Of a stretch of DNA of 64,000 nucleotides, positions 10,171 to 31,931 are shown piece after piece; within the stretch, counting starts at the first letter, position 1; each line of letters opens with the position of its first letter. A model generated the notes under the pieces. It was given only the letters and a program-made list of their open reading frames with translations, did no database searches and was not told the origin of the DNA. The stretch comes from Pseudomonas neuropathica (lineage in GTDB: Bacteria > Pseudomonadota > Gammaproteobacteria > Pseudomonadales > Pseudomonadaceae): positions 124,001 through 188,000 of the forward strand of contig NZ_JACOPX010000008.1 in assembly GCF_015461835.1 (NCBI RefSeq), written 5' to 3'. The position numbers and the translations under genes are program-made.

Positions 10171-10205
10171 ACGCTCACATGCCCAGATCCGCATCAGGAG
10201 GCATC

Positions 10206-14599: not shown

Positions 14600-15076
14600 T
14601 CAATCTGGCATTGAACGAATAATGTCGGCCAGATCATCCTTGGTTAATTCATTGGCCTTAATGGCGGCAGCGATATCTTTTTTGGAAAGCGGAAAACGCT
14701 TGAAAATTTCTTTCAAAGTATCTGCATCCACATTTGCCAGCCAGAGCGGATCAATAAAAGAACCACCATACTCAGGCTTCATGGGCACTTCTTCGTGAGC
14801 AATCGCGCCTTTATGATTCAGATACACCACATAACGATCGTGACCTTCAGGAAAGCTTTTATCGTGGTAGAGCGTAGTGCCCAGAGGCAGGACATAGAAA
14901 TTATCGTCGCCATTTGGACCTTCGATAAGCAACGGTTCTTTAGTTTTGATCATTTTCATATCGTGCCCCTTCGCAATATCATCAGAAATCAGAAAAGCCA
15001 AAAAAATCGCATTTACGGATAAAACTGCCACCAGCCAAAGGCCAAGTCGCCTATTTGTAAACATTTTTCTTATCAT
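14600..15076 (-). CDS. Membrane-anchored putative immunity protein
   Basis: A 158-residue protein with one N-terminal membrane segment ('LGLWLVAVLSVNAIFLAFLI') and a soluble domain predicted to face the periplasm; I do not recognise the family. I chose ATG 15076 for its GAGG at 6 bases; the start sits inside the end of the upstream effector-like gene (26-base overlap), the usual arrangement for an immunity gene translated with its toxin. The segment has clearly lower GC than the surroundings, suggesting horizontal arrival. A periplasmic location would suit protection from a cell-wall-cleaving toxin. The role is inferred from order, overlap and topology. Confidence 0.6.
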   Translation of the reverse strand: MIRKMFTNRRLGLWLVAVLSVNAIFLAFLISDDIAKGHDMKMIKTKEPLLIEGPNGDDNFYVLPLGTTLYHDKSFPEGHDRYVVYLNHKGAIAHEEVPMKPEYGGSFIDPLWLANVDADTLKEIFKRFPLSKKDIAAAIKANELTKDDLADIIRSMPD

Positions 15077-15749: not shown

Positions 15750-16255
15750 TAAAGATGTTCCGTATCTTCAAGTTTCGGAAACTTTATGCTGCAACTCCCT
15801 CTAGGAATATTTGCAACATGCACAAAGCCATTTTCGTCAAGGACGCCAGTCATCAAGGTTCCATCCGGCAGCGTCAGTTCATACGCCTCATTGGCGATGG
15901 GCTCATCTTTTTCGTTAAGCAACTGAAACTCGACAAAAGTCTTTTCTTTCAGAAACTGCGAGAAGAAGCTAGTGGAAGCGCCACCACCAGACTCACCGAC
16001 GAAGGTGTCGGGTGATCCGGCAGTAATCGTCGCTCCGCATGCTGTTTGGGAGCCAACATGGGCAACGTCTTTCCCCAAACCGAAAACATGGGGAGCGCCC
16101 GTCGTTATGGGGTTGCTGCCGTGAAGAGGACAGGAATAGATATCTCCTACCAATGCCACGGGCATTGAATTAACAAAAATAGGACTTGATCCAGTGGAAA
16201 TGTTTCCGCCGTGACTCCCTGGGTCTCCGAGCCTTGCGACTGGCTTTCCTGCCAT
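15749..16255 (-). CDS. PAAR-domain spike tip protein with transthyretin-like extension
   Basis: A 168-residue PAAR protein ('GKPVARLGDPGSHGG', then 'GDIYSCPLHG', 'VGSQTACGATI') that should cap the VgrG spike of a type VI secretion system. After residue 90 the chain continues as a small beta-sandwich ('FQLLNEKDEPIANEAYELTLPDG', ending 'ANIPRGSCSIKF'), the transthyretin-like extension known on some PAAR proteins, which helps attach cargo. It heads an effector/immunity trio with no vgrG or structural genes nearby, so it would use a machine encoded elsewhere. AAGGAG precedes the ATG. Confidence 0.85.
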   Translation of the reverse strand: MAGKPVARLGDPGSHGGNISTGSSPIFVNSMPVALVGDIYSCPLHGSNPITTGAPHVFGLGKDVAHVGSQTACGATITAGSPDTFVGESGGGASTSFFSQFLKEKTFVEFQLLNEKDEPIANEAYELTLPDGTLMTGVLDENGFVHVANIPRGSCSIKFPKLEDTEHL

Positions 16256-17443: not shown

Positions 17444-18461
17444 AGTGATTCTCTCTCATTGATAGTTGCAGCTGGCCCATTCGACTTCCAGGAAAAATGG
17501 GTGGCAGCTGTACGCAGGCTGGAAATCCGGGAGAGAGCAACCCGGCAGACACGAATGTCTCCCGCGCACAACCGCCATAACAGAGTGCACACAATGAAAG
17601 TGCGCAAGCATACGTTATGAAAGGCGTATCTGCTCTCTCGTGTCTTCGGGTTTCCATGCCCGGTCGCTGAATTGGCAGCGACGAACACAGGCTAGAGACC
17701 GGACGTCCGACGGACAACCTGAAAACCTTGTGGGAAGGTTCCGCCGATTCAGACACTTCTTTAAACACACTTCAGATCGCAGCCCTCACCCTAGCCCTCC
17801 CGAAACGTCGGACCGCCCGGAGGGAGAGGGAACTGACCGAGGTGTTTGGGTGAGGTACGCCGACGTGAAATACCGAGCTGAACTCAGATTTTGAAGCGTT
17901 GAAGCAAGAGCCCCTCACCCTAGCCCTCTCCCAGAGGGAGAGGGGACTGACCGAGTGGTTTGGTAGAGGTACGCCGACGTGCGATACCGCGTTGAACTCA
18001 GGTTTTGAAAAGCACACAAATCGGCTCCCTCTCCTCGGGGAGAGGGCTGGGGTGAGGGGCAAATCCACCACAAATCCAAAGCCGAACACCCGCGCTCTTC
18101 ACCACTCAATAGGCCGAGTGTCAGCTCGCCTGCTCTTGATCTTGATCCACGGGCGACGTCGGAAGGCTGAGTGGAGGGATTGATCCGGGCGTGGGAGCGC
18201 AGCGACCGTTTGGCGCAGCCAAACACAGCGAGAGGAGGTGCAGCGAAGCAAACCGTAGGCGCTGCGCCCGGATCGATCACGGAGCGAAGGAACCCCGAGC
18301 TTTAGCGAGCGGGCCGCACGTAGGAGCAAGCCTTTTTGGTTACTTTTTCGGCGTCTGGAAAAAGTGACCCGCCGTAAGGGCGGAACCCTAAGCTGCCGTT
18401 ACCGCAGCAACGGATATGCACCCGCCCAACCAGAACCTGGTCGGCCCGAAGGCCGCCACGT
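17444..18461. repeat. Gene-free repeat-rich interval
   Basis: About 1 kb without a convincing gene. 17500-17700 has short inverted repeats. 17760-18080 holds three copies of a 'CCTCACCCTAGCCCTC' / 'GGGAGAGG' element alternating with 'GTACGCCGACGTG-GATACC', also found at 47656-47945. 18100-18410 is a longer low-complexity element of a kind scattered between Pseudomonas genes, with 'GGAGCGCAGCGACCG' and 'TTTTTCGGCGTCTGG'. Small frames here are incidental. Confidence 0.7.
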
Positions 18462-19322
18462 TCACTCCGCCTCAGGGTCAATCTTGTTCTGGCTCAAATA
18501 CCGATTCAACACATCATCCTGCCCAGGCACAGAAGCGTCCCCCGCCACCTGCCACAACCGCCGCTCAATCCCCTGCGCCACCATATGCCCCACCGCCGCC
18601 TCAATCGCCGACAACACACAAAGCTGCGCCGGCTCATTCGTCGTATACCCGACCTCAGCCTCAAGCAACTTTTTGAACTCGATAAACTTGAAAATCCCGG
18701 CACTGCGCGCCACCGAATAAATCGTCTTGCTGGTCATCACATTCGCCAACACCTGCCCGCTGCGAACATCCACCGCACGCAAGTTCACAGTCACCTGATC
18801 CACCCGATACTCACGCTGCAAATCAATCCCCAGATACCGCGCCCCTTCCCCACCGCTACGCACGTTCGTGTCATAAGCGATGATCCCACCCTCAAGCATC
18901 ATGTTCGCCGCCTGCAACGGCGGCAGCTCACCCTGAATATTCACCGGCGTATTCGGCTTCTTCTGCGACGCGCGAATGATCTTGCGCTCGGTCAACAGGT
19001 TCTGCAGCCCTTCCCGCTCCAGCACCACAAACCAACCACTGGCCTGCATCGCGTCCATCAACATCGACGCTGCACCCTGGGTCACACTGGTGGAAAACGA
19101 ACTCGCCGGCGTCGGCTTGTACTGCCCGGTCTGATCACGGAACCCGTACACCACCGCCATCAACCGCCCCTTGGGCCGTGGCATCTTCAGCAAGTCGTAA
19201 TAAGTCGAGGCCCTTGGAGTCAGGGTCGGGGTTTCGGTGTCCTGCTCGGCCGACATCGGCTCACGCAGACTGCACCCTTGTAATGTCGCCAACAGCAGCC
19301 CTAACGCGATGATCTTTTTCAT
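18462..19322 (-). CDS. csgG: Curli secretion channel lipoprotein CsgG
   Basis: A 286-residue lipoprotein (lipobox 'LQGCS') with the hallmarks of CsgG: 'VYGFRDQTGQYKP', 'MLMDAMQASGWFVVLEREGLQNLLTERKII', 'GIIAYDTNVRSGGEGARYLGI', 'YRVDQVTVNLRAVDVRSGQVL' and 'SKTIYS'. CsgG forms a nine-fold outer-membrane pore that exports curlin subunits. It is the last gene of the long minus-strand chain, 28 bases after csgF. The final 30 residues are longer than in E. coli. Confidence 0.93.
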   Translation of the reverse strand: MKKIIALGLLLATLQGCSLREPMSAEQDTETPTLTPRASTYYDLLKMPRPKGRLMAVVYGFRDQTGQYKPTPASSFSTSVTQGAASMLMDAMQASGWFVVLEREGLQNLLTERKIIRASQKKPNTPVNIQGELPPLQAANMMLEGGIIAYDTNVRSGGEGARYLGIDLQREYRVDQVTVNLRAVDVRSGQVLANVMTSKTIYSVARSAGIFKFIEFKKLLEAEVGYTTNEPAQLCVLSAIEAAVGHMVAQGIERRLWQVAGDASVPGQDDVLNRYLSQNKIDPEAE

Positions 19323-19350
19323 GTCCGTTCTCCCCGGAACCGTCAGCCCG

Positions 19351-19782
19351 TCATGGGTTGAGGCCGTTCACCTGAATTTCCGAAACCTCACCGGTCGCTC
19401 GATCGGTCACTTCAATGCTCAGTGCCCCGGAGTCGTCGATGACGTTGACGATAAAAGAGTCGGTGGACAGGCTCCCCGTGTTGCCGGTGGAGATGTTGTC
19501 CAGCAACTGCCCTAGCAGCCGCGATTGCAATTGACTGGTGAAGCGCTCCAGCGCCGAGGTGCCGGCCACGCTCGAACGGCTTTTCAGGTCCGGATCGTCG
19601 TGATCGTTTTGCGCCTGCGCGTTGTTGAGCAGCCAGGTGCCGTTGAGCGGGTTGCCGCCGAACGACGGGTTGACCGGCGTGTAGACCAGTTCAGTGGCCT
19701 GGACAGCCGCAACGCTGGCGAGCCCGATCAACAACCCCGAGATCCAGAATCCGCTGCGCCGTGAGAACGTTGTGCTGTTCAT
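19351..19782 (-). CDS. csgF: Curli assembly factor CsgF
   Basis: A 143-residue secreted protein with signal peptide to 'VQATELVYTPVNPSFGG'; the 'YTP-NPSFGGNPLNG' start of the mature chain, then 'LLNNAQAQN', is diagnostic for CsgF, which inserts in the CsgG pore and couples export to nucleation. The ATG overlaps the csgE stop by 4 bases. Confidence 0.92.
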   Translation of the reverse strand: MNSTTFSRRSGFWISGLLIGLASVAAVQATELVYTPVNPSFGGNPLNGTWLLNNAQAQNDHDDPDLKSRSSVAGTSALERFTSQLQSRLLGQLLDNISTGNTGSLSTDSFIVNVIDDSGALSIEVTDRATGEVSEIQVNGLNP

Positions 19783-20171
19783 AGTTCGTCCTTCTCAAGG
19801 TCGGTGGTGTCCTGCAACAGAGCCTCCAGCTTGCGCTGGACAACCTGGCGTCGAACCCAGTCGGCGGCCGCGTAGGCCTCGTCCTTCAGTTCCACGGTGT
19901 TCGGCGGCAGGAAGCGCCGATAAACCAGGCGTTGCTGATATTCCACGGTCACCAGGCTGCCCCAGCGCGCGTCGGGGCGCTCGCGCACCACCAGGTTGAA
20001 ATCCATCGGGCTGGTGTCACGCAGGCGTTCACTGAACGAGTAGTAAAAGTCGTGGCCGATGTGCGAGATCGTGTCGTCGACGATGAAGCCCATCATTTCG
20101 TCTTCTTCACCGGCGTGGGCGCAGCACGCCACAGCGGTGAGGATCAGCGCGCACCACCACTGACGAGTCAT
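19779..20171 (-). CDS. csgE: Curli chaperone/export factor CsgE
   Basis: A 130-residue periplasmic protein (signal peptide to 'CCAHAG') with the CsgE features 'GFIVDDTISHIGHDFYYSF' and 'LVVRERPDARWGSLVTV', and the later 'QQRLVYRRFLPP'. CsgE caps CsgG from the periplasm and feeds unfolded subunits. Its start overlaps the stop of the pseudopilin gene at 20168, which links curli export genes to the secretion machine by translational coupling. Confidence 0.9.
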   Translation of the reverse strand: MTRQWWCALILTAVACCAHAGEEDEMMGFIVDDTISHIGHDFYYSFSERLRDTSPMDFNLVVRERPDARWGSLVTVEYQQRLVYRRFLPPNTVELKDEAYAAADWVRRQVVQRKLEALLQDTTDLEKDEL

Positions 20172-20707
20172 GGCTGCAACGCCTGCGGCAAATTTGACTG
20201 GCCTTTGGCCGGGCCATTGGTGCCTTCAAGAAAGGCTTTTTCGGCAACGAACTGCCAGTCCGAATAGCGCTGCATGCCTTCGAAATCCGACCACTGTGTC
20301 GGGAAGTCCGCCTGCTTCAACGGCAGCTCGGTCGACGGGCTGTTGAGGCCGGTGATGCGTCCATCGAAACCGCGTTGTACTGCCCATTCACCCTGACCGA
20401 TCGGGTCTGGATAAAGCTGACGCAAATGATGTTTCGCTTCTGGAAAACGTTGATCGTCGAGCAGGTCGACCAATTCTTTCGGGTACTGCGCCAACCCCGG
20501 CGAACTGCGGTAGTAGCTGCGCAGCGCCTGGGCGTATTGAGTGCCGACCCAGAGCAACTGGCGTTCACGGTCACGGCGCGACGCGGTCGACCACAACTCG
20601 CCAGCACTGGCCAGGCCCATGCCCATCACCACAATCAGGAACAGCACGCCCAGGTAAGTGAAGCCGCCCTGCTGCGCGCGGTTACCACTCGGAATACTGG
20701 CTGCCAT
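20168..20707 (-). CDS. Atypical pseudopilin lacking Glu5
   Basis: A 179-residue pseudopilin: prepilin cleavage site in 'QQGGFTYLGVLFLIVV' and a long hydrophobic helix, but the residue at mature position 5 is Leu rather than the conserved Glu, as in tip-type pseudopilins. The C-terminal domain has 'ARRDRERQLLWVG-QYAQALRSYYRSSPG'-like helices (here 'TASRRDRERQLLWVG') typical of a recurring T2SS-associated protein. ATG 20707 follows GGGAGG at 7 bases. It is the last of three pseudopilin genes and overlaps csgE by 4 bases. Confidence 0.78.
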   Translation of the reverse strand: MAASIPSGNRAQQGGFTYLGVLFLIVVMGMGLASAGELWSTASRRDRERQLLWVGTQYAQALRSYYRSSPGLAQYPKELVDLLDDQRFPEAKHHLRQLYPDPIGQGEWAVQRGFDGRITGLNSPSTELPLKQADFPTQWSDFEGMQRYSDWQFVAEKAFLEGTNGPAKGQSNLPQALQP

Positions 20708-21056
20708 CACGCGCCCTCCCGGTAGCACCGCTTTTGATATCAGCCACACCACCGGCAACGCCGTCCGGTGGCGCGATCAGCACCCACTGGTCTTTGCGTT
20801 CGGTAATCGGGTCGAGTGGCGCGTTGCGCAGGTAACGTTGTTCGATCAGTTGCTCGATGGAATCCGGATAACGGCCGGTGTCGCCGTAGAAGTGATCCAG
20901 CGCCTCGCGCATCGCCGACAGACTCTGGCGCAGGGTGGTTTCCTTCGACGCTTCGAGGCTGTTGAAGTAGCGCGGCAGCGCGATGGTCATCAGCGTGGCG
21001 ATGATCGCCATCACCACCATCAGCTCCAGCAAGGTAAAACCTTTTTCCCGGCGCAT
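20682..21056 (-). CDS. GspG-like pseudopilin
   Basis: A 124-residue pseudopilin starting 'MRREKGFTLLELMVVMAIIATL', with G/F cleavage and Glu5 present, and a GspG-type globular part ('SAMREALDHFYGDTGRYPDSIEQLI', 'LDPITERKDQW'). It follows the previous pseudopilin gene by 5 bases and overlaps the next by 26. Prepilin peptidase is not encoded in the window and must be supplied elsewhere (PilD). Confidence 0.83.
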   Translation of the reverse strand: MRREKGFTLLELMVVMAIIATLMTIALPRYFNSLEASKETTLRQSLSAMREALDHFYGDTGRYPDSIEQLIEQRYLRNAPLDPITERKDQWVLIAPPDGVAGGVADIKSGATGRARDGSQYSEW

Positions 21057-21061
21057 GAGGT

Positions 21062-21541
21062 TCACCACTCGCGGTAGGCGATGCCGTTGAGGCCCTTGCC
21101 CCGGGCGTGGGAGTAGACGTCGAACACGTCCTCGCCATCGCGCGGATTCTGAGCCGAACTGTTGTAGGCGCGCACGCCCCAACCCCCTTCATCATCACGT
21201 TTGGCCGGCACCAGCGGATCGCGCGGGATGCGGCGTAAAAAGTAGAACTTGGCGCCCTTGGCGCTGCGCACATCGCGCACGCCTTCGACCAGCACTTTCA
21301 GGTTCGGCGGGTAGCCGCTGCTGTTCAGCGACTTCTCGATGTAGCCGGCATCGAAGGCGCGTTTGTAGGCGTCGATGGCATCGCGAATCTGGTACAGCGC
21401 GTTGCGCAATTCCTGCTCCTTGCCCCGCCGCACCAGGGTCTCGGTCAGCGGCGCGGCCATGCTCGCCAACAGGCCAATCAGGGCCAGCGTCACCACGACT
21501 TCGATCAGGGTGAAACCGCGTTGGGAGGCGTTCATGATCAA
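21062..21541 (-). CDS. GspG/PilE-like pseudopilin
   Basis: A 159-residue pseudopilin: 'SQRGFTLIEVVVTLALIGLLASMA' gives the cleavage site and Glu5, followed by 'LRNALYQIRDAIDAYKRAFDAGY' and 'RRIPRDPL', the usual major-pseudopilin core. The start (ATG 21541 or ATG 21535) overlaps the secretin stop. With two more pseudopilins downstream and gspG at 41.0 kb, the system has four pilin-like subunits. Confidence 0.83.
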   Translation of the reverse strand: MIMNASQRGFTLIEVVVTLALIGLLASMAAPLTETLVRRGKEQELRNALYQIRDAIDAYKRAFDAGYIEKSLNSSGYPPNLKVLVEGVRDVRSAKGAKFYFLRRIPRDPLVPAKRDDEGGWGVRAYNSSAQNPRDGEDVFDVYSHARGKGLNGIAYREW

Positions 21542-23385
21542 GGCTTCTCGACAGTGACGCGGGTGGTGGCCACGGCCGATTCACCGACGGCACGCGGCTG
21601 CGCGGCAGGCGACGGCATCACGTAGCTCTGCGAACGATCCGGGGCCTGGATGTGCATGCTGGTCTCGGTGCCGGTGGAGAACTCCATGTCCGACGGGCTC
21701 TGATACGGCAGGTTGCGCACGATCCGTGGGGTGATCGACAGCACCAGTTCGGATTTGCCGATGGTGTCTTTGTTGCTGCCGAACAAACGGCCGAGTCCGG
21801 GAATATCGCCGAGCCCCGGAATCTTGTTGCCGGTGGCGCCGTGGTCGTTGCGCACCAGCCCGGCGAGGATCTGGGTTTCGCCATCGTGCAGACGCAGCGA
21901 GGTTTGCGCATTGCGGGTGTCGACCTGCACCGGGATCGTGCCCTGACGGGTCGGTTCCAGCGGCGTGGCGTTACTCACTTCGAGAGCAATCTTGATCGCC
22001 ACTTCGTTGTTCAGGTGCACGGTGGGCGTCACTTCGAGCTTCAGACCGACATCCAGGTAGGTCACGCTTTCAGTGATCACCGGCCCCTGTGTCGACGGCA
22101 CCGAGGTCGCGCTGATGATCGGCACGCGCTGACCAATGTGAATGCGCGCCTGCTCGCGGTTGCTGACGCGAATCACCGGACTGGCGAGGGTGTTGATGTC
22201 GTTGTCCTGCGCGTTGATCTTGGCTTGCGGCGATGGGCCGATGGAGATGCGGTCAGAGTTGATGCCCTTGAGCTGGCCCAACAGGGTGACTGGCGAACCA
22301 TCGGAGTTGACCACACCGAAGGTGCTCGGCCATTGCAGGCCAAGGTCGAGAATGCGCTGGGTGGCGACTTCCATCACCTCCACTTCGAGCACCACCTCGG
22401 GGTTGGACTGGTCTTGCGATTGCAGAAGTTTCTCGGCCATGCGCACGGCGTCTTCGGTGTCGCGCATGGTCAGGGTGTTGAGTCGTTCGTCGACAAACAC
22501 ATCGCGGGTCTTGAGCATGGTTTTGACCATGTTTAGCGCGGTGTTGGCGTCGATGCTGGTCAGGTAGAACGTGCGCATCACCAGTTCCTGGTAATCCTTC
22601 ACTTTCTGTGGCGAATCCGGGTAGATCAGCAAGGTGTTTTCGTTCACCACTTTCTGGTGCAACTGGTTCTGTTGCAGCAGCAAGGTCACGGCGTCTTCGA
22701 TGCGCACGTCACGCACGAAGATCGTCGCTTTCATGTCCGGGCGCAGGTCTTTGTCGAAGATGAAATTGAGCCCGGCGACTTGCGACAGCACTTCGAAAAT
22801 GGTCTTGAGGTTGGCGTCACGAAATTCCAGAGTCACCGGGCGATCGAGCTTGGTGCGCAGTTGCGGATAAGCAATCACGTTGCGGCTCTGCACCAGGCGA
22901 ATGTTGCCTTGCAACTCCAGCGCGCCTTGGTTGGCCGGGTCGAGTTCGAGGATCTGTTTGACCTGACGATCCGCACCGTAGATGTCGCCACGACGCAGGT
23001 CGCCGCGGGCCAGCTCAAGTTTCTCGTCCATGCTGCGCAGGTACTCCATCTGCTTCAGCGCATCCTGGGCGCGGCGGTTGTTCGGCTCGATGGTCAGCAC
23101 GCGCATGTAGGCGGTGCGCGCCGAAGTGAAGTCGCGACGCGCGCGGTCGGTGTCGCCGGCCGTCAGCAACGACGTGATCGCCTTGGCCCGGCCGGTGTTG
23201 AGCAGCAGGTGCAATTCGGTGTCGCGAGGGTTTTCACGCAGGCCTTCTTCGATCCGCGCCAGCCCCGCCTCGTACTGACCCTGTTCAATCAGGTCGGCGG
23301 CTTCCTTGTTGGCCACCTGCGCGGTGCTGCACGCGGCCAGCCCGGCACACAGGCCCAGGCTCATCAGCAAACGGGAACGGTTCAT
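21538..23385 (-). CDS. gspD: Lipoprotein secretin of the type II-like system (GspD/MshL type) with TPR N-terminus
   Basis: A 615-residue outer-membrane secretin. Lipobox 'LAACS', then TPR-like helices (about 25-145), a STN/N0-type domain ('VTLEFRDANLKTIFEVLSQVAGLNFIFDKDL'), a short N1-type domain ('VMRTFYLTSIDANTALNMVKTML') and the secretin core ('VLEVEVMEVATQRILDLGLQWP', 'RVPIISATS', 'VTYLDVGLKLEVTP', 'GNKIPGLGDIPGLGRLFG', 'ELVLSITPRIV'). With only one N1-like repeat and fused TPRs it is closer to MSHA/type IV pilus secretins than to classical XcpQ. It overlaps the PilP-like gene by 4 bases. It should form the exit channel for this machine. Confidence 0.9.
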   Translation of the reverse strand: MNRSRLLMSLGLCAGLAACSTAQVANKEAADLIEQGQYEAGLARIEEGLRENPRDTELHLLLNTGRAKAITSLLTAGDTDRARRDFTSARTAYMRVLTIEPNNRRAQDALKQMEYLRSMDEKLELARGDLRRGDIYGADRQVKQILELDPANQGALELQGNIRLVQSRNVIAYPQLRTKLDRPVTLEFRDANLKTIFEVLSQVAGLNFIFDKDLRPDMKATIFVRDVRIEDAVTLLLQQNQLHQKVVNENTLLIYPDSPQKVKDYQELVMRTFYLTSIDANTALNMVKTMLKTRDVFVDERLNTLTMRDTEDAVRMAEKLLQSQDQSNPEVVLEVEVMEVATQRILDLGLQWPSTFGVVNSDGSPVTLLGQLKGINSDRISIGPSPQAKINAQDNDINTLASPVIRVSNREQARIHIGQRVPIISATSVPSTQGPVITESVTYLDVGLKLEVTPTVHLNNEVAIKIALEVSNATPLEPTRQGTIPVQVDTRNAQTSLRLHDGETQILAGLVRNDHGATGNKIPGLGDIPGLGRLFGSNKDTIGKSELVLSITPRIVRNLPYQSPSDMEFSTGTETSMHIQAPDRSQSYVMPSPAAQPRAVGESAVATTRVTVEKP

Positions 23386-23897
23386 TGCGTACTCCCCACA
23401 GACAAGGTCTGCGACAAATGCAAAGGCAGGTAGACCAGGCTCAATTCCACATCGGAAATGCCGGTGATCTTCCAGGTGTCGTCGATCACATCCCCGTTGC
23501 GCACGACGTAGATCTTTTCGCCGTTCTGCAAAAACACTTGCAGGTCGCTGCGGTCATGCAGCCGACCGACGAACTGAAACGGCACCGGTGGCAGGCTCGG
23601 GGCTTGCACCACTGTGGCCGGGTTGATCGCTTGTTCGGTGACCGTGGCCAGGGTCGGCGCGGCCTTCCAGGATTTCGCCGCGAACAGATCGCCGGCCGGG
23701 CTCAGGTCCTTGATCGGTGCATCCTTGGCCTTGGCGGTGCTGGCCGGCAGCGCGCCCCGGGTTTTCCCCGGTGTGGCGACGGCAACCTGGTTCGAATCGG
23801 CGTCTTCGCTTGGCGAGAAATACGCCGGCAACCACGCCAACGCCGCCGCCACACCGAAGAACGCCAGCCACCCTGTCACGCGCTTGGTATTCATCAC
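23382..23897 (-). CDS. PilP/GspC-like inner-membrane linker protein
   Basis: A 171-residue protein with one N-terminal membrane segment ('WLAFFGVAAALAWLP'), a Pro/Ala-rich linker, and a small beta domain near the end ('FQFVGRLHDRSDLQVFLQNGEKIYVVRNGDVIDDTWKI'), the HR/PilP-type domain that contacts the secretin. It overlaps its neighbours by 4 bases on both sides. Confidence 0.78.
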   Translation of the reverse strand: MMNTKRVTGWLAFFGVAAALAWLPAYFSPSEDADSNQVAVATPGKTRGALPASTAKAKDAPIKDLSPAGDLFAAKSWKAAPTLATVTEQAINPATVVQAPSLPPVPFQFVGRLHDRSDLQVFLQNGEKIYVVRNGDVIDDTWKITGISDVELSLVYLPLHLSQTLSVGSTQ

Positions 23898-24442
23898 GAC
23901 CTCGACAGGTAAAGGGTCATACGGATCCGGCCATTGAGGTCGGTGTCGCCAATCTTCTTGCGTTGCAACTCGAGGTCTTCCACCACCACCGCCGGCAACT
24001 GACCGAGCAAGGCGTGCACGAAGCGGCGCAGTTGCGGGTAGCTGCCGCGCACTGGCAAGAGGATCTGATAGCGCGCCAGATGGGTTTTCGGGTCGACACC
24101 GAGGGCGTACTCACCGCGCGCCAGGGTGATGTGCTCCTGGGCTGCGAGGGCGTAGATGCGGTCGATGGCGACGGTGGCTTGCGGCTGCGCCGGCAGTTTG
24201 TTGCGGAAGTCGTCGAGCTGACGCTGCGGCACCACCGGCGGCGCGATGCTGCCGTCTTCAACCTTGGCCAGGTACTCGCTGGCTTCCTGAGTCTGCTGGC
24301 TCAAGTGCTGCAACGATTGCCAGCCCGGCAGCAAGCCACCGAGTGCCCAAGCCACGGCGACCAGCAGCAACGCCAACCCGGCGAGGCCCGGAACGCCGAG
24401 GCCTTGCAGGTATTCGTGGACGATCAGTCTAGGGATTCGCAT
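23894..24442 (-). CDS. PilO/GspM-like protein
   Basis: A 182-residue inner-membrane protein: a membrane segment ('LAGLALLLVAVAWALGGLLPG'), a coiled-coil stretch, then a ferredoxin-like domain ending 'VVVEDLELQRKKIGDTDLNGRIRMTLYL', typical of PilO. It overlaps the PilN-like gene by 14 bases. Confidence 0.8.
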   Translation of the reverse strand: MRIPRLIVHEYLQGLGVPGLAGLALLLVAVAWALGGLLPGWQSLQHLSQQTQEASEYLAKVEDGSIAPPVVPQRQLDDFRNKLPAQPQATVAIDRIYALAAQEHITLARGEYALGVDPKTHLARYQILLPVRGSYPQLRRFVHALLGQLPAVVVEDLELQRKKIGDTDLNGRIRMTLYLSRS

Positions 24443-24974
24443 CGCCCATCTCCCAGGTCGCCGACAGGTTGAATTGCACCGGTTGCTCCGGCGATTTGAC
24501 GACGATTTCGTGGCTCAGCAGCGACACGTCGGACAGCTCGTCGCTGGCTTCCAGCCGTTTGTGGAAATCGAGCATCGCTTGCAGATCCCGCGCTTCAGCG
24601 CTGATCCGCACTTGGCCCTTGCGCGCATCCGGGGTCAGAGTCAGCAGCGCGACGTCATCGCGCGGCATGGCTTCGAGCATGGCGAACAGGCGTTCCCACG
24701 GCCGGCGCAGTTGCTGCGAGACCTTGCGCATCTCGGCGAGGTTTGCCGCTTGCTCGCGGGTTTCCGCCGGGCTCAGGGTGGACTTGGCGCCGCTGTCGCC
24801 GGTGAGCTGACGCTGCGTGGTTTGCAGATGACCTTGTTGCTGTTCGGTGTGCGCGTCGAGGTGCTGTTGCACGCCGAAGCACAGCAGCGCCAGCAGCACG
24901 CCGCCGCCGAGCAGGCTCCAGCCCAACGGGCCGGAACGTGGACGTGGCTGAAAATCGAGATTAAGCGCGCGCAT
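24429..24974 (-). CDS. PilN/GspL-C-like protein
   Basis: A 181-residue inner-membrane protein starting 'MRALNLDFQPRP', with one membrane segment ('LGWSLLGGGVLLALLCFG'), a coiled coil and a C-terminal PilN-like fold ('VALLTLTPDARKGQVRISAEARDLQAMLDF'). Its ATG lies one base after the PilM-like stop. PilN/PilO pairs bridge the cytoplasmic motor to the secretin linker. Confidence 0.8.
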   Translation of the reverse strand: MRALNLDFQPRPRSGPLGWSLLGGGVLLALLCFGVQQHLDAHTEQQQGHLQTTQRQLTGDSGAKSTLSPAETREQAANLAEMRKVSQQLRRPWERLFAMLEAMPRDDVALLTLTPDARKGQVRISAEARDLQAMLDFHKRLEASDELSDVSLLSHEIVVKSPEQPVQFNLSATWEMGDANP

Positions 24975-24975
24975 G

Positions 24976-25779
24976 TCAGGCCACCGCCCGGGACATGACG
25001 TACAAGCCGTCACGCACGGTCATCGCGTCGTCTTCAAGGGTGCGCAGTTGCACCCCCGCCACGTCCGGATGCGCATCAAGGCGCGCCGGCGCATGCAGAT
25101 AAACGTTGAAGGCGCGTTCGCTGGTCGAGGCCTGCAGCTGCCGTTCGCGACCGATCAGGGCATTCAACGCGGCATCGCTGTCGCTGCCGCCCACTGAGCG
25201 CACACCGGCCCAGCGCCCTTCCCTTGCGAGCAACAACACGCTGCGTTGCGGCTCGGCGACGACGAAGAGGAAGTCGCCGGCATCGAGACTTTTGTCGAAG
25301 CGGTTGAACGCCGCCATCAGGTACGGCTGCACCGAGCGCAGGCGCAAACCGCGACCACTGACCAGCGTGCGCAGGCGTTCGAGCAAGTCTTGCGGCAAGG
25401 CGCTGGCGATGCGGTCGTAACCGGCCGGTTCGGCGGACAACACCAGACTCCACGGCTGGGTTGGTGCACCGAACAGGTCTTCGAAACACAGTTGGGCAAA
25501 GCCGCGCAGTTCCTCAGGGCTGCTGATCTGCGCGCTCCATGGCACCAGGCAGAAACGGCTGAAGTGACCGGAAATGACCACGCTCAATTCGGCACCGGCG
25601 CCGGCGTGTTCACCGAGCAGGCGATCGAGGGTATCCAGCGCCACCGCGTAGCTCTGGAAGCCTTCGTCGATGTAACCGACGCTGCCCAGCCACAGGGTGT
25701 CGCTGCCGCGCCGCTGACCGAGACCAACACCGCTGGCGCCGAGCACGGCGACAAAACGCTCACGAGATAAATGTGACAC
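24976..25779 (-). CDS. PilM-like cytoplasmic assembly protein
   Basis: A 267-residue protein that I start at GTG 25779, because GGAGGAG lies 7 bases upstream; it overlaps the gspE stop by 20 bases. 'ERFVAVLGASGVGLGQ', 'DRLLGEHAGAGAELSVVISGHFSRFCLVPW' and 'SVLLLAREGRWAGVRSVGG' fit a shortened actin-like PilM/GspL-N fold. It would connect the ATPase to the PilN-like protein. Confidence 0.68.
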   Translation of the reverse strand: MSHLSRERFVAVLGASGVGLGQRRGSDTLWLGSVGYIDEGFQSYAVALDTLDRLLGEHAGAGAELSVVISGHFSRFCLVPWSAQISSPEELRGFAQLCFEDLFGAPTQPWSLVLSAEPAGYDRIASALPQDLLERLRTLVSGRGLRLRSVQPYLMAAFNRFDKSLDAGDFLFVVAEPQRSVLLLAREGRWAGVRSVGGSDSDAALNALIGRERQLQASTSERAFNVYLHAPARLDAHPDVAGVQLRTLEDDAMTVRDGLYVMSRAVA

Positions 25780-27481
25780 GGTTGATCTCCTCCAGCGTGG
25801 TGCGACCTTGTTCCACCAGCTCCAGCGCCGATTCGCGCAGCAGGCGCAAACCACGGGCGCAGGCCAGGGCTTTGATTTGTTTGATCGGTTGGCGCTCGAC
25901 GATCATCTGGCGCAGCTCGTCGTCGAGGTGCAGCAACTCGGCAATCGCCGTGCGCCCGCGATAGCCGCTGCCCCGGCAGTGGCCGCAACCCTTGCCGTGA
26001 ACGAAGTGGTAGTGATCGACTTTCTGCGGATCGAGGCCCGATGCGCGCAGTTCTTCATCGCTCGGATTGACCGGTGCGCTGCAACTGGCGCACACCAGCC
26101 GGATCAGGCGCTGGGCGAGAATCGCGTTGAGCGCCGAAACCAGGCTGTAGGGGTCGATTTCCATTTGCGTGAAGCGGCCGATCACGTCGAAGACGTTGTT
26201 GGCGTGGATGGTGGTGAACACCAGGTGACCGGTGAGCGCCGATTGCACAGCGATCTGCGCGGTGTCCGGATCACGGATTTCGCCGACCATGATCTTGTCC
26301 GGGTCGTGACGCAGGATCGAGCGCAAGCCACGGGCGAAGGTCAGGCCTTTTTTCTCGTTGACTGGAATTTGCAGCACCCCCGGCAACTGATATTCGACCG
26401 GGTCTTCGATGGTGATGATCTTGTCCACGCCGTGGTTGATCTCGGTGATCATCGCGTACAGCGTGGTGGTCTTGCCGCTGCCGGTCGGGCCCGTCACCAG
26501 GACCATGCCGTAGGGTTCGGCGGCGAGGCGACGCAACTGGCGCAGGGTTTCGTCTTCAAAGCCCAGCGCCTGCAATTGCACGCCGCAGACCTTGTCGGCG
26601 AGATCCTGTTTGTCGAGCACCCGCAGTACCGCGTCTTCGCCGAAGATGCTCGGCATGATCGATACGCGAAAATCGATCTGGCGGCCACTGATGCCGATCT
26701 TGAAGCGACCGTCTTGCGGTACGCGCTTCTCGCCGATGTCCAGTTCAGCCATGACCTTGACCCGCGAAATCACCTGCTCGGCGAACTCGCTGCCCTGGAC
26801 TTTGCTGATGTTGTTGAGCACACCGTCGATGCGGTACTTGATCACCAGACCGTGGCCGGTGGTGCCGAGGTGGATGTCGCTGGCGTGCATTTTCAGCGCG
26901 TCGTACAGGGTCGAGTTGACCAGTTTCACCACGCTGCTGGCGTCTTCGCTGATGCTGGTCAGCGACAGGCTTTGCAGGGTGTCGATTTCGTGGTGGGTGT
27001 CGCCCTGAGCGTTCAGCGATTCGACGGCATGAAAGCTTTCTTCGTGGCGGGCCAGATAGGCCTTGAGGTCATCGGCGTGCACCAGATACAGCGGCGCGCC
27101 GTGCAGGCAATCGTCGATCCAGGCCAGCCGCGCCGGGTCGAAGGGGTCGGCAAATACGCCGATGACTTCGTCGTTGTGGCGCAGCAGGATGAATTCGCGT
27201 TTCAGGCATTGTGCGAGGGTGACCCGGTCGAACACCGGCGTCGCGGCAAACAGGCTGTCCGTGTCGAGCACCGGGTAATGCAGGGTGGCGCCGAGGGTGT
27301 GAATGAACGGCATCGGCGCCAGTTCACAGAGTACGCCGAGGGCTTCAAGGACGCGTTCGCCGGAGGTGGCGGCCCGCGCCCGGGCCTGGGACAACTGCTC
27401 GCTGGAAAAGTATTCACTGGAAAAGCGCTCGGTGGCACTTGCGGCCAACAGCGGTTCGACGACAACGGACAGACGTTCCAT
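25760..27481 (-). CDS. gspE: Type II secretion/pilus assembly ATPase, GspE/PilB family
   Basis: A 573-residue ATPase: N-terminal GspE-N domain, then the core with Walker A 'GPTGSGKT' near residue 333, Asp box 'ITIEDPVEYQ', Walker B 'MVGEIRDPDTAQIAVQSALTGHLVFTTIH' (with His box), and a four-cysteine zinc module ('CASC' then 'CGHC'). This is the usual length and all catalytic motifs are intact, so it should power the machine. It lies 81 bases downstream of the receiver protein gene and leads the overlapping chain to csgG. Confidence 0.93.
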   Translation of the reverse strand: MERLSVVVEPLLAASATERFSSEYFSSEQLSQARARAATSGERVLEALGVLCELAPMPFIHTLGATLHYPVLDTDSLFAATPVFDRVTLAQCLKREFILLRHNDEVIGVFADPFDPARLAWIDDCLHGAPLYLVHADDLKAYLARHEESFHAVESLNAQGDTHHEIDTLQSLSLTSISEDASSVVKLVNSTLYDALKMHASDIHLGTTGHGLVIKYRIDGVLNNISKVQGSEFAEQVISRVKVMAELDIGEKRVPQDGRFKIGISGRQIDFRVSIMPSIFGEDAVLRVLDKQDLADKVCGVQLQALGFEDETLRQLRRLAAEPYGMVLVTGPTGSGKTTTLYAMITEINHGVDKIITIEDPVEYQLPGVLQIPVNEKKGLTFARGLRSILRHDPDKIMVGEIRDPDTAQIAVQSALTGHLVFTTIHANNVFDVIGRFTQMEIDPYSLVSALNAILAQRLIRLVCASCSAPVNPSDEELRASGLDPQKVDHYHFVHGKGCGHCRGSGYRGRTAIAELLHLDDELRQMIVERQPIKQIKALACARGLRLLRESALELVEQGRTTLEEINRVTFIS

Positions 27482-27562
27482 GGCTTGCTCTCCAACCGGG
27501 GCTTAGAGCCCTGTCGGCGCGGCAAACCTTGGCGGCAAGTGCCGGAACGTCTGTTCGCGCCA

Positions 27563-28093
27563 TTACTCCCCGGTGAGCATTTGATCGTCGTCCGGTGCCA
27601 TGGCGTGCAACTGTCGTCGCCGATCCGCCAACACCCAACTGCCATCGTACAACTGCAACGGGAAGCTCTCGGTCCTGCTCTGGCGTCGTTCGACAAATCC
27701 CTCGGAAGGGCTCGCACCGGGTTTCGCTTCACGCTTGATGCCCAGAAGGTCGCAGACCGCCCGCGCCAGTTCCGCCAAGGGAAACGGTTTGAACAGGATG
27801 TGGCTGACCCCCAGTTGCCGCGCCCGCTCACAGACTTCAGCGGTCGGGTGACCCGTTATCAGCACAAAATGGCACGTCCTGTTCTGGCGGACCGCGTCGA
27901 GCACCTCAAAGCCTTCCATATCGGGCAAGCGGTAATCGAACACCAGCACGTCGGGGGCAAAGGTTTCGGCCAAACCGATAGCCGTCGCTCCGTCATGTGC
28001 AATCGCGACGTCCAGCCCCTGCGCCGACAGATAATCCTGAAGGTTCTGTGCAAGCAGCTGTTCGTCTTCGACAACCAGTACTTTGTTAACCAA
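27563..28093 (-). CDS. Single-domain response regulator heading the secretion operon
   Basis: A 176-residue protein with a complete receiver domain ('VLVVEDEQLLAQN', phospho-acceptor Asp near 53 in 'DVLVFDYRLPDMEG', 'VLITGH', 'LFKPFPL') and about 55 further residues with no DNA-binding domain I recognise. The start is TTG 28093, with AAGGAG 6 bases before it; no better ATG is available. As first gene after the sigma-54 promoter it could switch the machine post-translationally; its kinase is not adjacent, but either membrane kinase at the left end is a candidate. Confidence 0.82.
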   Translation of the reverse strand: MVNKVLVVEDEQLLAQNLQDYLSAQGLDVAIAHDGATAIGLAETFAPDVLVFDYRLPDMEGFEVLDAVRQNRTCHFVLITGHPTAEVCERARQLGVSHILFKPFPLAELARAVCDLLGIKREAKPGASPSEGFVERRQSRTESFPLQLYDGSWVLADRRRQLHAMAPDDDQMLTGE

Positions 28094-28312: not shown

Positions 28313-29074
28313 TCAGTCGTCGTCAATTCGTTCGATCCTGTTCTGCACCCGTAATTGCGCGAGCACCTGACGACGAGCCTGGGTCTGTTGCTGTCGGGCG
28401 AACTCTGCCCTGACTGTATCCAGCCCCTGTAAATCTGGGACATCGGCGGCCTCCAAGTGGTTCGGCAAATAAATCACATGCCAGCCAAACGGTGAACGCA
28501 GTGGTTGGCTGGCAAAACTCGCCCCGCTGACAATCGAGGCGCGCATTTGCATCAAGCGTAGACGCGCTTGAGCCACTGTGGCTGCATCTGCTTGCACGGG
28601 CACGCGGATCAACAGGTGACGGGGTTGCAAGGTATTGGCGCGGATCAGTTCGGCGAACATCTGCTGCGCCGCCAGTTCGCGGCGGGTGTACTCGGTGAAG
28701 GAGGCCTCATCGAAACCGGCGTCCTGCAAGCGCCGGACGAATTTATCCGCGCCGCCGATGGCCATGCGGGTTTGCTCGATCTGCTGACGCAGCAATTGTT
28801 CGTCGATCTGCCGGCCACGTTTCTGCGACTCCTGCCACAGCAATTCTTTGTCGATCAGCATTTGCAACGCGGCCTGGCGCAGTTCCTTGTAGGCCTTGGG
28901 GCTGCGAATACTCGTCACCGCGCGGCCCTGATCTTCCAGGTATTCGGCGAAGAAGCGCTCGAAGCGAAACCCGGAAATCTCCGTGCCGTTGACCCGTGCC
29001 ACGGCCGGCTCGTTATTCGCCCACGCCAGCGGCAGCCAGCAAGTCAGCAGCAAGATCAGCGTTGTGCGTTTCAT
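28313..29074 (-). CDS. SurA/PpiC-like periplasmic protein with shortened parvulin domain
   Basis: A 253-residue exported protein (signal peptide to 'PLAWANNEP') with a SurA-N-like helical chaperone domain ('VARVNGTEISGFRFERFFAEYL', 'ALQMLIDKELLWQE') and then the start ('QPRHLLIRVPVQAD') and end ('SPFGWHVIYLPNH') of a parvulin domain. The middle of the parvulin fold, normally about 45 residues with the GGDLG segment and part of the active site, is missing, so isomerase activity is doubtful and a holdase role for the exported oxidase is more likely. It is the last gene of the mnxG group and ends right beside the enhancer repeats of the next operon. Confidence 0.75.
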   Translation of the reverse strand: MKRTTLILLLTCWLPLAWANNEPAVARVNGTEISGFRFERFFAEYLEDQGRAVTSIRSPKAYKELRQAALQMLIDKELLWQESQKRGRQIDEQLLRQQIEQTRMAIGGADKFVRRLQDAGFDEASFTEYTRRELAAQQMFAELIRANTLQPRHLLIRVPVQADAATVAQARLRLMQMRASIVSGASFASQPLRSPFGWHVIYLPNHLEAADVPDLQGLDTVRAEFARQQQTQARRQVLAQLRVQNRIERIDDD

Positions 29075-29089: not shown

Positions 29090-30640
29090 TCAGGGGCTGG
29101 CAACCATCGGTTTATAGGGTGCGACCAGATAGAAACGTTGATCGGGCAAATCCACGGTAACCACATGCGCGCCGCTCAAGCCCAGCCGTCGACCGGGACC
29201 GAAACTCAGGCGCGGGGTCAGGCCGGTGTCGAAGTCGTGCAGGCCTTCCAGCGCCGCCACCAGTTTCTCGCGGCTGGCGTCGCGGCCGGCCTGCTTCATG
29301 CCTTCGCTGAGCAGCAACATCGAGGCATAGGCGCCGACTTGCAGCACCGCGTGCTGGGCGCCGAGGCCTTGGCCTTCACGCAGTAACGTCAGGGCCATGC
29401 GCCCGGCCTGGGTCCAGTCGCTGGGCACGAACGGATAGGCGAGAAACACCCGCCGGGTGAATCCGTCGGGGACTTGCAGCAGATCACCCGCCACCTGACT
29501 AGAGGCGGCAAACAGGTAAGGCACTTGCCCGGCGCTTTGCAGCCGCGTCGCCAGACGACTGAAGCCGCCGCCAGTGCCCAGATAAAACACTGAACGCGAA
29601 CCCAGCGGCAGCGCATCCGCCGTCGGGTCGTAGGCTTGCAGATGGACTTTCTGCCAGCCGTGATCCTGCAAGTACTGGCCGAGGTTTTGCGCGGCTTGCG
29701 TCTGGATCGGGTCATCGGGATAAGCAATCAGCGTCGGCCCTTGCAGCACGCGCAAACTGGCCGTGGCGTAATCGGCCAGCGCGATCAACTGCTCACGCAA
29801 TCCCGGTAATGGCTCGAATATCTGCGGACTGGCCTGCAGGGTGCCGAGGATCGACATCGGCCCGATCAGTGGCACCCCGGCCTGTTCCAGGCGTGGCCCC
29901 AGTTCGCTGTCGAGAGCCGGTGCCAGCGGCGCGATCAGCGCAAACACCTGTTCCTGCTCGATCAGTTGCTGCAAGGCCTGTTCGGCACTGGCGCGGTCCG
30001 GGCCGGGATCGATCACCGTCAAGCGCAACTGCCGGCCGTGTATGCCACCGGCCTGATTGATCCGCGCGACACTGCCGTTGAGCACCGCCGCAACGGTCAT
30101 GCCCTCCTCGGCCAGCGGCCCTTGGCTGGGCAGCAAGGTGCCCAGATGCAAGGTCTCGGTATCGAGGCCGGGGTCGCGTTCGTCGGCGAGGCGTTTGAGA
30201 TAGGCGGTGAGGTTGCGCTGATCCTTCATCGACAGCAGAAAGCGCGGCATGCTCGGGTCGAGACGGTTGTGGCCGGGATCTCGGCCCTGCTCAATGGCCG
30301 TGGCCAGAGTGCTTTCGCTGTAGGCCGGATAGCTGCGGCCGTTGACCTGTTGCTGGCCATACGTGCTGGTCAGTCGCGCCCAGTTCAATTCGGGGGGACG
30401 CACGCCGCCTTCAGGTCGGCCGAGGCCATCGGTGCCATGGCAATTGGCGCACGGCAGGCTGGTCGCCGGCAGCAACACATCCGCCGCGCCGACCCGCGCC
30501 ATGATCGCTTCGCCACTGGCCGACAAGCCTTGGCGGTACAAGCGTTTTCCCGCCGCCTCTTCGGGTGTCAGCGGCGCAGCGCTCGTGCCAAGGCTGACGC
30601 CGGCGAGCAGGACCAGGGCGAGGACGCAGTAGCGTTTCAT
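29090..30640 (-). CDS. Cytochrome c fused to a Leu/Ile/Val-type binding protein
   Basis: A 516-residue periplasmic protein: signal peptide (to 'LGTSAAP'), a cytochrome c domain with 'CANCH' near residue 65 and likely Met ligand in 'PSMPRFLLSM', then from about residue 160 a complete periplasmic binding protein of the branched-chain amino acid family ('LHLGTLLPSQGPLAEEG', 'AVLNGSVARINQAGGIHGRQL', 'LIGPMSILG', 'GAYASMLLLSEGMKQAG'). No ABC transporter genes are near. The fusion suggests ligand-gated or ligand-anchored electron transfer. The gene lies 9 bases downstream of a SCO1 gene in the mnxG group. Confidence 0.82.
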   Translation of the reverse strand: MKRYCVLALVLLAGVSLGTSAAPLTPEEAAGKRLYRQGLSASGEAIMARVGAADVLLPATSLPCANCHGTDGLGRPEGGVRPPELNWARLTSTYGQQQVNGRSYPAYSESTLATAIEQGRDPGHNRLDPSMPRFLLSMKDQRNLTAYLKRLADERDPGLDTETLHLGTLLPSQGPLAEEGMTVAAVLNGSVARINQAGGIHGRQLRLTVIDPGPDRASAEQALQQLIEQEQVFALIAPLAPALDSELGPRLEQAGVPLIGPMSILGTLQASPQIFEPLPGLREQLIALADYATASLRVLQGPTLIAYPDDPIQTQAAQNLGQYLQDHGWQKVHLQAYDPTADALPLGSRSVFYLGTGGGFSRLATRLQSAGQVPYLFAASSQVAGDLLQVPDGFTRRVFLAYPFVPSDWTQAGRMALTLLREGQGLGAQHAVLQVGAYASMLLLSEGMKQAGRDASREKLVAALEGLHDFDTGLTPRLSFGPGRRLGLSGAHVVTVDLPDQRFYLVAPYKPMVASP

Positions 30641-30649
30641 GGCGCGGAC

Positions 30650-31270
30650 TCAGCGGCCGGCCACGGGCATTGTCAGCAACTGCAAGCGCTGGGCAATGGC
30701 GGCAGCCGGGGCGTCGGGACGGATTTTGCTCCAGCGTTTATTGGCGACATCGCCGACGATCAACTGCGTGGAGTGTTGCTCTGGCGTCGGTACGATCTGG
30801 CCGATGCGACTCAATACCAAGTCCATCTGCGCCTTGTCGCCGGTAAGAAAAAGCCAATGAGGGTCATCGGAACCCTGCTTCAAGGTGTAAGCCTTGAGCA
30901 CCGCCGGCGTATCGCGCAGCGGATCACTGGTAAGGGAAATAAAGGTGATGTCCTGCGCCTTGTCACCCAGCAGCTCGCGGACTTCCTTGAGCTTTTGGGT
31001 GATCAGCGGACACGCGTCATTGCAACTGGTGAAGATCACGTTAAGCAGGACGATGCGGTTTTGCAGCGCATCGCTGTAGAAGCGCAGGGTCTCGCCGTTC
31101 TGATCCTGTAAAGGCGTGTCGGTGAACCAGGTTTTCGCGTCGTGGGTGCCTTTGGCCGGCGCGGCGGCCACAGCGGCTGGCGGCTCAGAGACGTGGCCTT
31201 CGTGAGCGAACACGACGTTACCAAGAATCCAGAAACACACGGTCAGGGAGATCCAGTCGAGCAGTCTCAT
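30650..31270 (-). CDS. SCO1/SenC copper chaperone, copy 1
   Basis: A 206-residue membrane-anchored or secreted SCO1 protein: N-terminal segment 'WISLTVCFWILGNVVFAHEGH', copper motif 'TSCNDACP' and conserved 'TSDPLRDTPAVLKAY'; the distal His lies in 'PEQHSTQLIVGD'. It overlaps the next SCO1 gene by 4 bases. Likely copper or redox partner of the MnxG-like oxidase. Confidence 0.87.
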   Translation of the reverse strand: MRLLDWISLTVCFWILGNVVFAHEGHVSEPPAAVAAAPAKGTHDAKTWFTDTPLQDQNGETLRFYSDALQNRIVLLNVIFTSCNDACPLITQKLKEVRELLGDKAQDITFISLTSDPLRDTPAVLKAYTLKQGSDDPHWLFLTGDKAQMDLVLSRIGQIVPTPEQHSTQLIVGDVANKRWSKIRPDAPAAAIAQRLQLLTMPVAGR

Positions 31271-31917
31271 GGCTGTTGCTCCATGGCGATGGCAGTGTGT
31301 TTGGCGTGGGTGCGCAGGCCGCTGAGTTTTTCCACTTCCTTGGCCAGCAGCGCCGGATCAGTGAAGCCGTAGTAGCGCATCCAGTGGCGGCTGTCGCCGT
31401 CGCCGACGAGGATCAGCGGTTGATGACTCTTCAGGTCGCCGCTGAAACTGCCGAGGCCCTTGAGGGTTTCATTGATCGACTGTGGCGAGCCGGTCAGCCA
31501 GCTCCAGCCCGGCCCGCGCTGGAACGTGCGCGCATAATCCTGCAGGCGTTTCGGGTCGTCGCGCTGCGGGTCGATGCTGATCGACACCAGTTGCACTTCG
31601 TTGCCGACCCGTGCACCGAGCTGTTTCTGCACCTTGCCCATGATCGACGAGACCACCGGACACACCGTGGTGCAACTGGTGTAGATGAAGCTCATGACGA
31701 CGATTTTGCCCTGCACCAGGTCTTGTTCCAGGCGTACGGTTTTGCCGTTCTGGTCGAGTAGCGGCACGTTGGCGAATTTCACCTGGGCGTGTTCCTGGGT
31801 ATTGCTGGCCGGGGCTTTGTGCCCGGCGTGCTCGTCCGCCGAATGGGCCTGGGCTTGTTGGATGCCGAGGCTCAACAGGCACAGGCTCAGCAGGCCACTG
31901 GATGCAAATCGGTTCAT
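31267..31917 (-). CDS. SCO1/SenC copper chaperone, copy 2
   Basis: A 216-residue SCO1 protein starting at ATG 31917 (AGGAG 7 bases upstream). Signal peptide to 'QQAQAHSADEH', a His-rich mature start, copper motif 'TSCTTVCP' and 'SIDPQRDDPKRLQDYA'; the distal His is in 'KSHQPLILVGDG'. Two SCO1 genes here plus the fused one by mcoA make three copper-loading proteins for two oxidases. Confidence 0.88.
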   Translation of the reverse strand: MNRFASSGLLSLCLLSLGIQQAQAHSADEHAGHKAPASNTQEHAQVKFANVPLLDQNGKTVRLEQDLVQGKIVVMSFIYTSCTTVCPVVSSIMGKVQKQLGARVGNEVQLVSISIDPQRDDPKRLQDYARTFQRGPGWSWLTGSPQSINETLKGLGSFSGDLKSHQPLILVGDGDSRHWMRYYGFTDPALLAKEVEKLSGLRTHAKHTAIAMEQQP

Positions 31918-31931
31918 GTCGAAACTCCTCT

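Follow-up and report, generated by a model that had tools for sequence, protein, structure and literature searches.

The curli export genes csgE, csgF and csgG of Pseudomonas neuropathica were found at the end of a chain of tightly spaced genes for a type II-like secretion machine. The chain lies in a stretch of 64,000 nucleotides of contig NZ_JACOPX010000008.1 (positions 124,001 to 188,000); this whole stretch is called the window below, and positions are counted from its first letter. We take the chain to be the Xcm ('Gsp-related') locus of Mn(II)-oxidising Pseudomonas. In our reading, which we regard as fairly probable, the manganese (Mn)-oxidising multicopper oxidase MnxG leaves the cell through Xcm and the curlins leave it through CsgEFG; the two would be parallel machines, co-expressed from one operon and serving an extracellular matrix that oxidises Mn. 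The two sets of genes meet at the last pseudopilin gene, here called ppX.

Gene starts were picked mechanically as the nearest possible start. On this basis each of the ten junctions between gspE and csgF on the minus strand is an overlap or leaves 1 base between the genes, much as the original prediction had it when it described genes overlapping or abutting nearly throughout. The spacings are -20 for gspE/pilM, +1 for pilM/pilN, -14 for pilN/pilO, -4 for pilO/pilP, -4 for pilP/secretin, -4 for secretin/pseudopilin 1, -4 for pseudopilin 1/pseudopilin 2, -26 for pseudopilin 2/ppX, and -4 for both ppX/csgE and csgE/csgF. The idea that the chain is an artefact of the first reading was rejected on these spacings. 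At the point where the machine meets the curli genes the overlap is of the ATGA type, the ATG of csgE overlapping the stop of ppX (20168-20707, minus strand) by 4 bases. On the same strand follow csgE (19779-20171; Pfam CsgE 2.7e-36, PDB 2na4 5.6e-14), csgF (19351-19782; Pfam CsgF 2.6e-32) and, at a spacing of +28, csgG for the outer-membrane curli pore (18462-19322; Pfam CsgG 8e-80, PDB CsgG 1.8e-81). The interval first given for the curli genes and the machine, 20168-28093, has to be corrected: it ends at the pseudopilin, and csgEFG actually occupies 18462-20171. At the other end, gspE begins 81 bases past the end of a response regulator gene (27563-28093). The GspG and GspF of the machine are not part of the chain, and are encoded on the opposite strand, divergent from mnxG.

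The junction was compared among relatives of ppX, of which the best 80 of 277 were kept, so that close relatives were favoured; all 80 were Pseudomonas, with identities up to 99%. In 77 of the 80 csgE follows ppX, and csgF and csgG are both present in 76. The 4-base overlap of ppX stop and csgE start was kept in 75 of the 77 loci, and all 76 of the csgF starts overlap csgE. When the window and six further loci were added, the ppX/csgE overlap was possible in 80 of 84. The median Shine-Dalgarno energy of csgE was -2.6 kcal/mol against -2.7 kcal/mol for random 22-mers, i.e., at background for the starts chosen, with some loci reaching -9.9 (5-95% range); gspD and csgF gave about -6.4, values which likewise depend on the start chosen. 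The energies of pilP and csgG shift with the chosen start and were not used. A sigma-70 consensus scan of 17800-21600, in itself weak evidence, returned a single promoter-like site, on the plus strand, and none for the strand of csgE. Synonymous conservation was not raised in codons 161-180 of ppX, where the value for fourfold sites was 0.557 against a gene mean of 0.66. Taken together, the background Shine-Dalgarno signal, the promoter-like site on the plus strand alone and the unraised conservation at the 3' end of ppX favour translational coupling of csgE to ppX. The scan gave no sign of a private csgE promoter, and the chain is probably cotranscribed through csgE. A terminator-like hairpin after csgG (18384-18368) was left out of account, the count of 5 for the region not being above that of shuffled sequence (3.8). 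In one relative, L108 (G and L numbers are our handles for genomes and loci), csgE is truncated, csgF-csgG was not found and curlin fragments follow directly, which looks like a recent deletion from csgE into the curlins.

Outside the immediate junction, the association was followed in 278 genomes of the genus of the window. Weak or partial matches in G534, G495 and G561 were dropped, which brought the genomes with ppX from 108 to 105; in the wider draws described below, G704 (a weak mnxG match of 354 amino acids) and G302 (a weak ppX match in a locus without the machine) were dropped before the counts. L129 and L132 stand outside the mnxG check, as their sequence stops before the position of mnxG. 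In the final counts mnxG was found in 92 genomes, csgE in 99 and ppX in 105. All three occur jointly in 92 genomes, ppX without the others in 13 and csgE alone in 7, and no genome had mnxG without csgE and ppX. In every one of the 92 mnxG genomes csgE lies within 2 kb of ppX, and in 84 of them the distance from mnxG to ppX is at most 25 kb. Curlin repeats were present in all 76 of the 92 that were tested, and in none of the 21 genomes that have ppX and lack csgE (13 of the genus and 8 of other genera); mnxG was absent from the same 13 as well. The finding that would speak against the original prediction, a csgE promoter of its own together with an unconserved linkage, was thus not what the survey of csgE and pseudopilin neighbourhoods returned: the linkage held in 92 of 92 mnxG-bearing genomes, and the fusion was observed only in Pseudomonas.

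Three Mn-type genomes of the genus, G574, G654 and G685, have kept the chain from gspE to ppX, and mnxG, csgE and curlin were not found anywhere in their genomes. As mnxG and csgEFG flank the chain on opposite sides, one simple deletion is insufficient to explain the joint loss. On a GspE tree of 29 csg-bearing and 5 csg-less Mn-type loci there were four changes of the csg label, three of them forced by well-supported branches, and we read these changes as repeated losses. A CsgG tree was built with 20 of the 21 Xcm loci supplied. Their CsgG proteins formed one clade (98/90), adjoining CsgG proteins from four loci of the ordinary curli type in the same family (joint group 100/100), so that the fusion of machine and csg looks to have been made once. 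Such a single recruitment would also fit a capture of csgEFG by chance, kept for the expression gained and with no functional tie to the machine, and shared ancestry could account for much of the co-occurrence. We nevertheless consider mere linkage unlikely, because mnxG, csgEFG and curlin are jointly absent around a kept chain in three genomes, at no fewer than two separate places of the GspE tree (i.e., at least two), and because the 4-base overlap is so rarely lost among related loci.

Pilus-type machine and curli are normally separate, as was originally supposed and as follows from loci of other genera. In a draw of 398 genomes from the phylum, CsgE was present in 28 and ppX in 10, and the window's own genome was the sole member of both lists; csgE and this pseudopilin as general partners were therefore rejected. 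Seven genomes of other genera contributed nine ppX loci in which the machine forms a single operon. It runs GspG-GspF-GspE-(PilM-P slots)-secretin-three pseudopilins; in four of the nine a single slot protein, PilM or PilN, was not recovered, and csg genes were found in none of them. A tenth ppX locus was on a short contig, and an eleventh was a weak match showing no machine. Conversely, 20 csgE loci of other genera, out of 30 CsgE places outside the own genome, had no nearby relative of the window's four pseudopilins. A loose prepilin pattern matched five open reading frames (ORFs) in 5 of these 20 loci; one was csgG, and by eye the rest look like signal peptides or chance.

The genus also contains a sister machine of what we call the LPMO type, found in ten of its genomes and at a second locus of G683 (L032, L033, L151-L154, L168-L172). 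It resembles the machine of the window in its homologous GspG and GspF, in GspE where the sequence reaches it, and in its three pseudopilins; it differs in a permuted gene order and in an LPMO_10 gene that separates ppX from GspG at all 11 loci (Pfam-tested in three). The ten genomes that have this type only lack csgE and mnxG, and G683 has both types. In G579, G459 and G452 the LPMO-type ppX match contains one in-frame TAG.

These loci bear on whether the two machines form a composite exporter, in which the pseudopilus or its tip protein physically aids CsgEFG, e.g., in the loading of CsgE or the unblocking of the CsgG pore. Such help would agree with the persistence of the csgE/ppX junction in all 92 genomes, two with a relocated mnxG among them. 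It would also agree with the slot after ppX: a conserved gene stands there in the LPMO variant as well, so that the slot may be a place for partners of the tip pseudopilin. Against this stand the csg-free machines, nine of them at loci of other genera and more in 13 genomes of the genus, with curlin detected in none of these genomes, and the absence of relatives of the window's pseudopilins from all 20 csgE loci of other genera. In addition, CsgE, CsgF and CsgG match their ordinary families, and CsgE and CsgG match solved curli structures. The original suggestion that the pseudopilus helps curli is hence disfavoured, and we consider a composite exporter quite improbable.

Turning back to two parallel machines, the LPMO_10 neighbours hint that this kind of machine exports secreted enzymes. 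For MnxG itself, homologues outside the genus were sought in a draw from the class (173 genomes) and in the eight ppX genomes, and were found in four genomes of other genera: G715, G830, G710 and G156. In two of the four, the gammaproteobacteria G715 (L202-L203) and G830 (L204-L205), mnxG stands beside ordinary Gsp type II genes, including GspK, PilN/GspL, GspM and an N0-type GspD in both, and GspJ in G715. This suggests that MnxG-type oxidases may be exported by two kinds of type II system, and gives the original idea of a machine for MnxG export modest independent support. The four genomes gave no curlin match, and this counts against a further reading, in which CsgEFG would serve MnxG instead of curlin, the CsgG pore or CsgF anchoring or releasing the oxidase at the surface.

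What would speak for CsgEFG acting on MnxG is that mnxG never occurs without csgE in the genus and that G501 has a second mnxG beside a full curli operon (L155); given that curlin genes accompany mnxG in every tested genome of the genus, that a convergent csgA lies about 4.4 kb or less from csgG in 46 of 53 long loci, and that MnxG is, as is generally known, much larger than the cargo of the CsgG pore, we hold it to be very unlikely. In the window CsgE, CsgF, CsgG and curlin-repeat subunits of a curli (type VIII) secretion system are present. The subunits are a small curlin-repeat protein, a CsgB-like candidate (12513-12977, plus strand; Curlin_rpt 2e-19), and a large one, a CsgA-like candidate (13005-14456, plus strand; Curlin_rpt 2e-22), both convergent with csgG.

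Several observations weigh against co-expressed machines for MnxG and curlins. In G516 and G609 mnxG lies approximately 180-220 kb from ppX with csgEFG still attached to the machine, and in six further genomes mnxG and ppX are on different contigs; with csgE near ppX throughout the 92, the bond of csg to the machine is therefore no looser than its bond to mnxG. The 92 genomes may be mostly one lineage, and the counts ignore shared ancestry. In 7 of the 53 long loci no csgA was within reach. As to the joint losses, the stretch taken from G574 does not reach the GspG-GspF pair, and the contig of G654 stops 240 bases past ppX, so that csgE loss there is judged from the search of the whole genome. 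In other genera, G710 has mnxG with no type II genes in the 20 kb taken, and G156 has mnxG with no adjacent type II genes in the stretch taken, its machine being far away. Since G156 has both the machine and this distant mnxG homologue, with no csgE or curlin match, the pairing of mnxG and machine with csg is not universal.

With these points considered, we still infer two machines working side by side. The type II-like machine would push folded, copper-loaded MnxG across the outer membrane, and csgEFG, at the 3' end of the machine operon, would export the curlins encoded nearby. The start of csgE sits on the stop of ppX, mostly with no clear ribosome site of its own, and the curli exporter would therefore be made whenever the MnxG exporter is made. 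The two would operate in parallel through separate outer-membrane pores, the secretin and CsgG, and the product would be an amyloid matrix carrying MnxG, the site of Mn oxide formation. Of the earlier claims, co-translation is plausible and its linkage conserved; that the two machines are 'built together' is likely in the sense of co-expression, and not in any further sense.

All other components of the machine in the chain are on the minus strand. The assembly ATPase is of the GspE/PilB type, with MshEN and T2SSE domains (25760-27481; Pfam T2SSE 418 bits), and the NCBIfam models for GspE and PilB both score under their cut-offs. The PilM/GspL-slot protein (24976-25779) was assigned from position and conservation; its possible GTG start gives the 20-base overlap with gspE, and Pfam and NCBIfam gave no match to queries made with other starts. 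The chain continues with a PilN-like protein corresponding to the periplasmic part of GspL (24429-24974; Pfam PilN 5e-6 on a longer ORF), a PilO/GspM-like protein (23894-24442; Pfam T2SSM_b 1.6e-5) and a PilP/GspC-slot protein (23382-23897), placed by its position in the conserved operon, for which family (Pfam, NCBIfam) and PDB searches were without match. The secretin (21538-23385) has a TPR-like N-terminus followed by STN, Secretin_N and Secretin domains according to Pfam, and by eye it begins with a lipoprotein-like signal. Pseudopilin 1 (21062-21541) matches N_methyl, and pseudopilin 2 (20682-21065), queried as a longer ORF, matches N_methyl and, under the cut-off, T2SSG. In the chain proteins Pfam found no GspD N0 domain for the secretin, no GspK and no GspJ. 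The separate pair on the plus strand consists of the major pseudopilin GspG in the XcmT1 position (40980-41456; T2SSG 3.9e-44, PulG pseudopilus 5wda 8e-27) and the inner-membrane platform protein GspF in the XcmS position (41471-42658; T2SSF 3.9e-57).

The third pseudopilin, ppX, is XcmX-like and has a Shine-Dalgarno energy of -10.5 before its ATG at 20707. Pfam and NCBIfam searches gave no family match. Most pseudopilins carry Glu at +5 of the processing site; the site of ppX is G-FTYLG, with no Glu at this position. A first structure model from ten sequences (predicted local distance difference test, pLDDT, 56) was set aside. For a model from 43 sequences (mean pLDDT 76.5) the top seven structural matches were pseudopilins or pilins, PulG being the best (Z 7.5, root-mean-square deviation 4.3, 98 aligned), and Foldseek returned nothing at E<=0.001. 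GspK was not among the listed matches, which carries no evidential weight. The deeper model supports a pseudopilin fold and nothing beyond, and one may fairly guess that ppX is a tip or minor pseudopilin.

Upstream of gspE, and on the same strand as the chain, lie the genes from mnxG to the response regulator. The mnxG gene (34182-40097) matches the NCBIfam equivalog NF041487.1 with 3917 bits at a cut-off of 3100. Matches in relatives often begin at residue 10-20 or later and hold one stop, and the start at 40097 may for this reason be too early. Then follow a YncE/cytochrome-D1-like beta-propeller protein (31932-34154), two SCO1/SenC proteins, by family copper chaperones (30650-31935), a cytochrome c/periplasmic-binding protein (29090-30640) and a SurA-like foldase (28313-29074), and the response regulator receiver protein (Response_reg 2e-22). 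In the G501 locus L155 (contig C4, 5177-17471) the second mnxG-yncE pair is divergent from csgE-csgF-curlin-csgG-curlin; no Xcm genes were seen there, and it forms an independent mnxG-curli neighbourhood.

Between csgG and the curlins of the window, a PAAR protein and a neighbour with no Pfam match were located at 15051-16255 (minus strand). The segment 14001-16000 is low in G+C (0.48), and the PAAR region is perhaps an inserted type VI effector cassette. Before the curlins (8824-12440, plus strand) are a protein of 448 amino acids belonging to no family and a Big_9/cadherin-like protein. Homologues of these two adjoin second mnxG copies in three genomes (L158, L159, L160), and in L143 the machine, too, has a Big_9 protein nearby.

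Compared with canonical type II systems (Gsp/Xcp/Hxc), the window shares GspE, GspF, GspG, PilN/GspL, a GspM-like protein and a secretin, as well as the probable export of a folded enzyme. It differs in that the chain has no Pfam match to GspK, GspJ or N0, in the TPR-like secretin N-terminus and in the three small pseudopilins that close the machine's part of the operon; the canonical GspK and N0-type GspD matches occur in the mnxG-linked systems of G715 and G830. In comparison with ordinary curli, CsgE, CsgF, CsgG and the curlins fall within their families, whereas csgEFG forms the tail of a type II-like chain and the curlin genes are convergent. A parallel is OmpB/OxpG of Geobacter, where a multicopper protein is reported to be served by a type II system of atypical kind.

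The linkage of Xcm and csg has probably been known since 2003. In P. putida GB-1, de Vrind and colleagues reportedly described an xcmT1-xcmS pair (GspG-GspF) of a 'Gsp-related' pathway, xcmX flanked by xcmT2/xcmT3 and by the csg homologues csmEFG, and mutants that failed to export the Mn-oxidising factor. By that account, the window is like this locus in having an XcmX-like pseudopilin flanked by two pseudopilin genes on one side and csgEFG on the other, and in the separate GspG-GspF pair on the plus strand (40980-42658). It differs in belonging to another strain, and in holding GspG-GspF, mnxG, the chain and the curlins in one stretch of 30 kb. The name 'Xcm cluster' is used for GB-1 and KT2440 in one paper (PMC4509608). 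The importance of secretory genes for Mn oxidation in P. putida is credited to de Vrind et al. (2003) in two others (PMC3056050, PMC3521999), the former of which names csgEFG and csgAB as two clusters. A literature search, mostly of papers outside subscription, gave no description of csgEFG adjoining pseudopilins, nor of the association of mnxG, csg and curlin in the genus or of their two-sided losses. In a curli survey (PMC3521004) the terms looked up gave no type II genes, and 'curli' or 'csg' did not occur in two Mn papers (PMC9765421, PMC11409713).

A stronger form of our reading would make the curli amyloid an obligate structural partner of secreted MnxG, the oxidase being mounted on or among the fibres of a Mn-oxide-forming matrix. 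If the two were obligate partners, either would be useless without the other, and this would account for the loss of both where the chain is kept. We put this forward tentatively, as a possibility that is rather doubtful at present. The finding bears on why Pseudomonas oxidises manganese and on how a very large oxidase gets to the surface, and the strict association of mnxG, xcm and csg, together with the two-sided losses, makes a functional amyloid in the Mn-oxidising apparatus testable.

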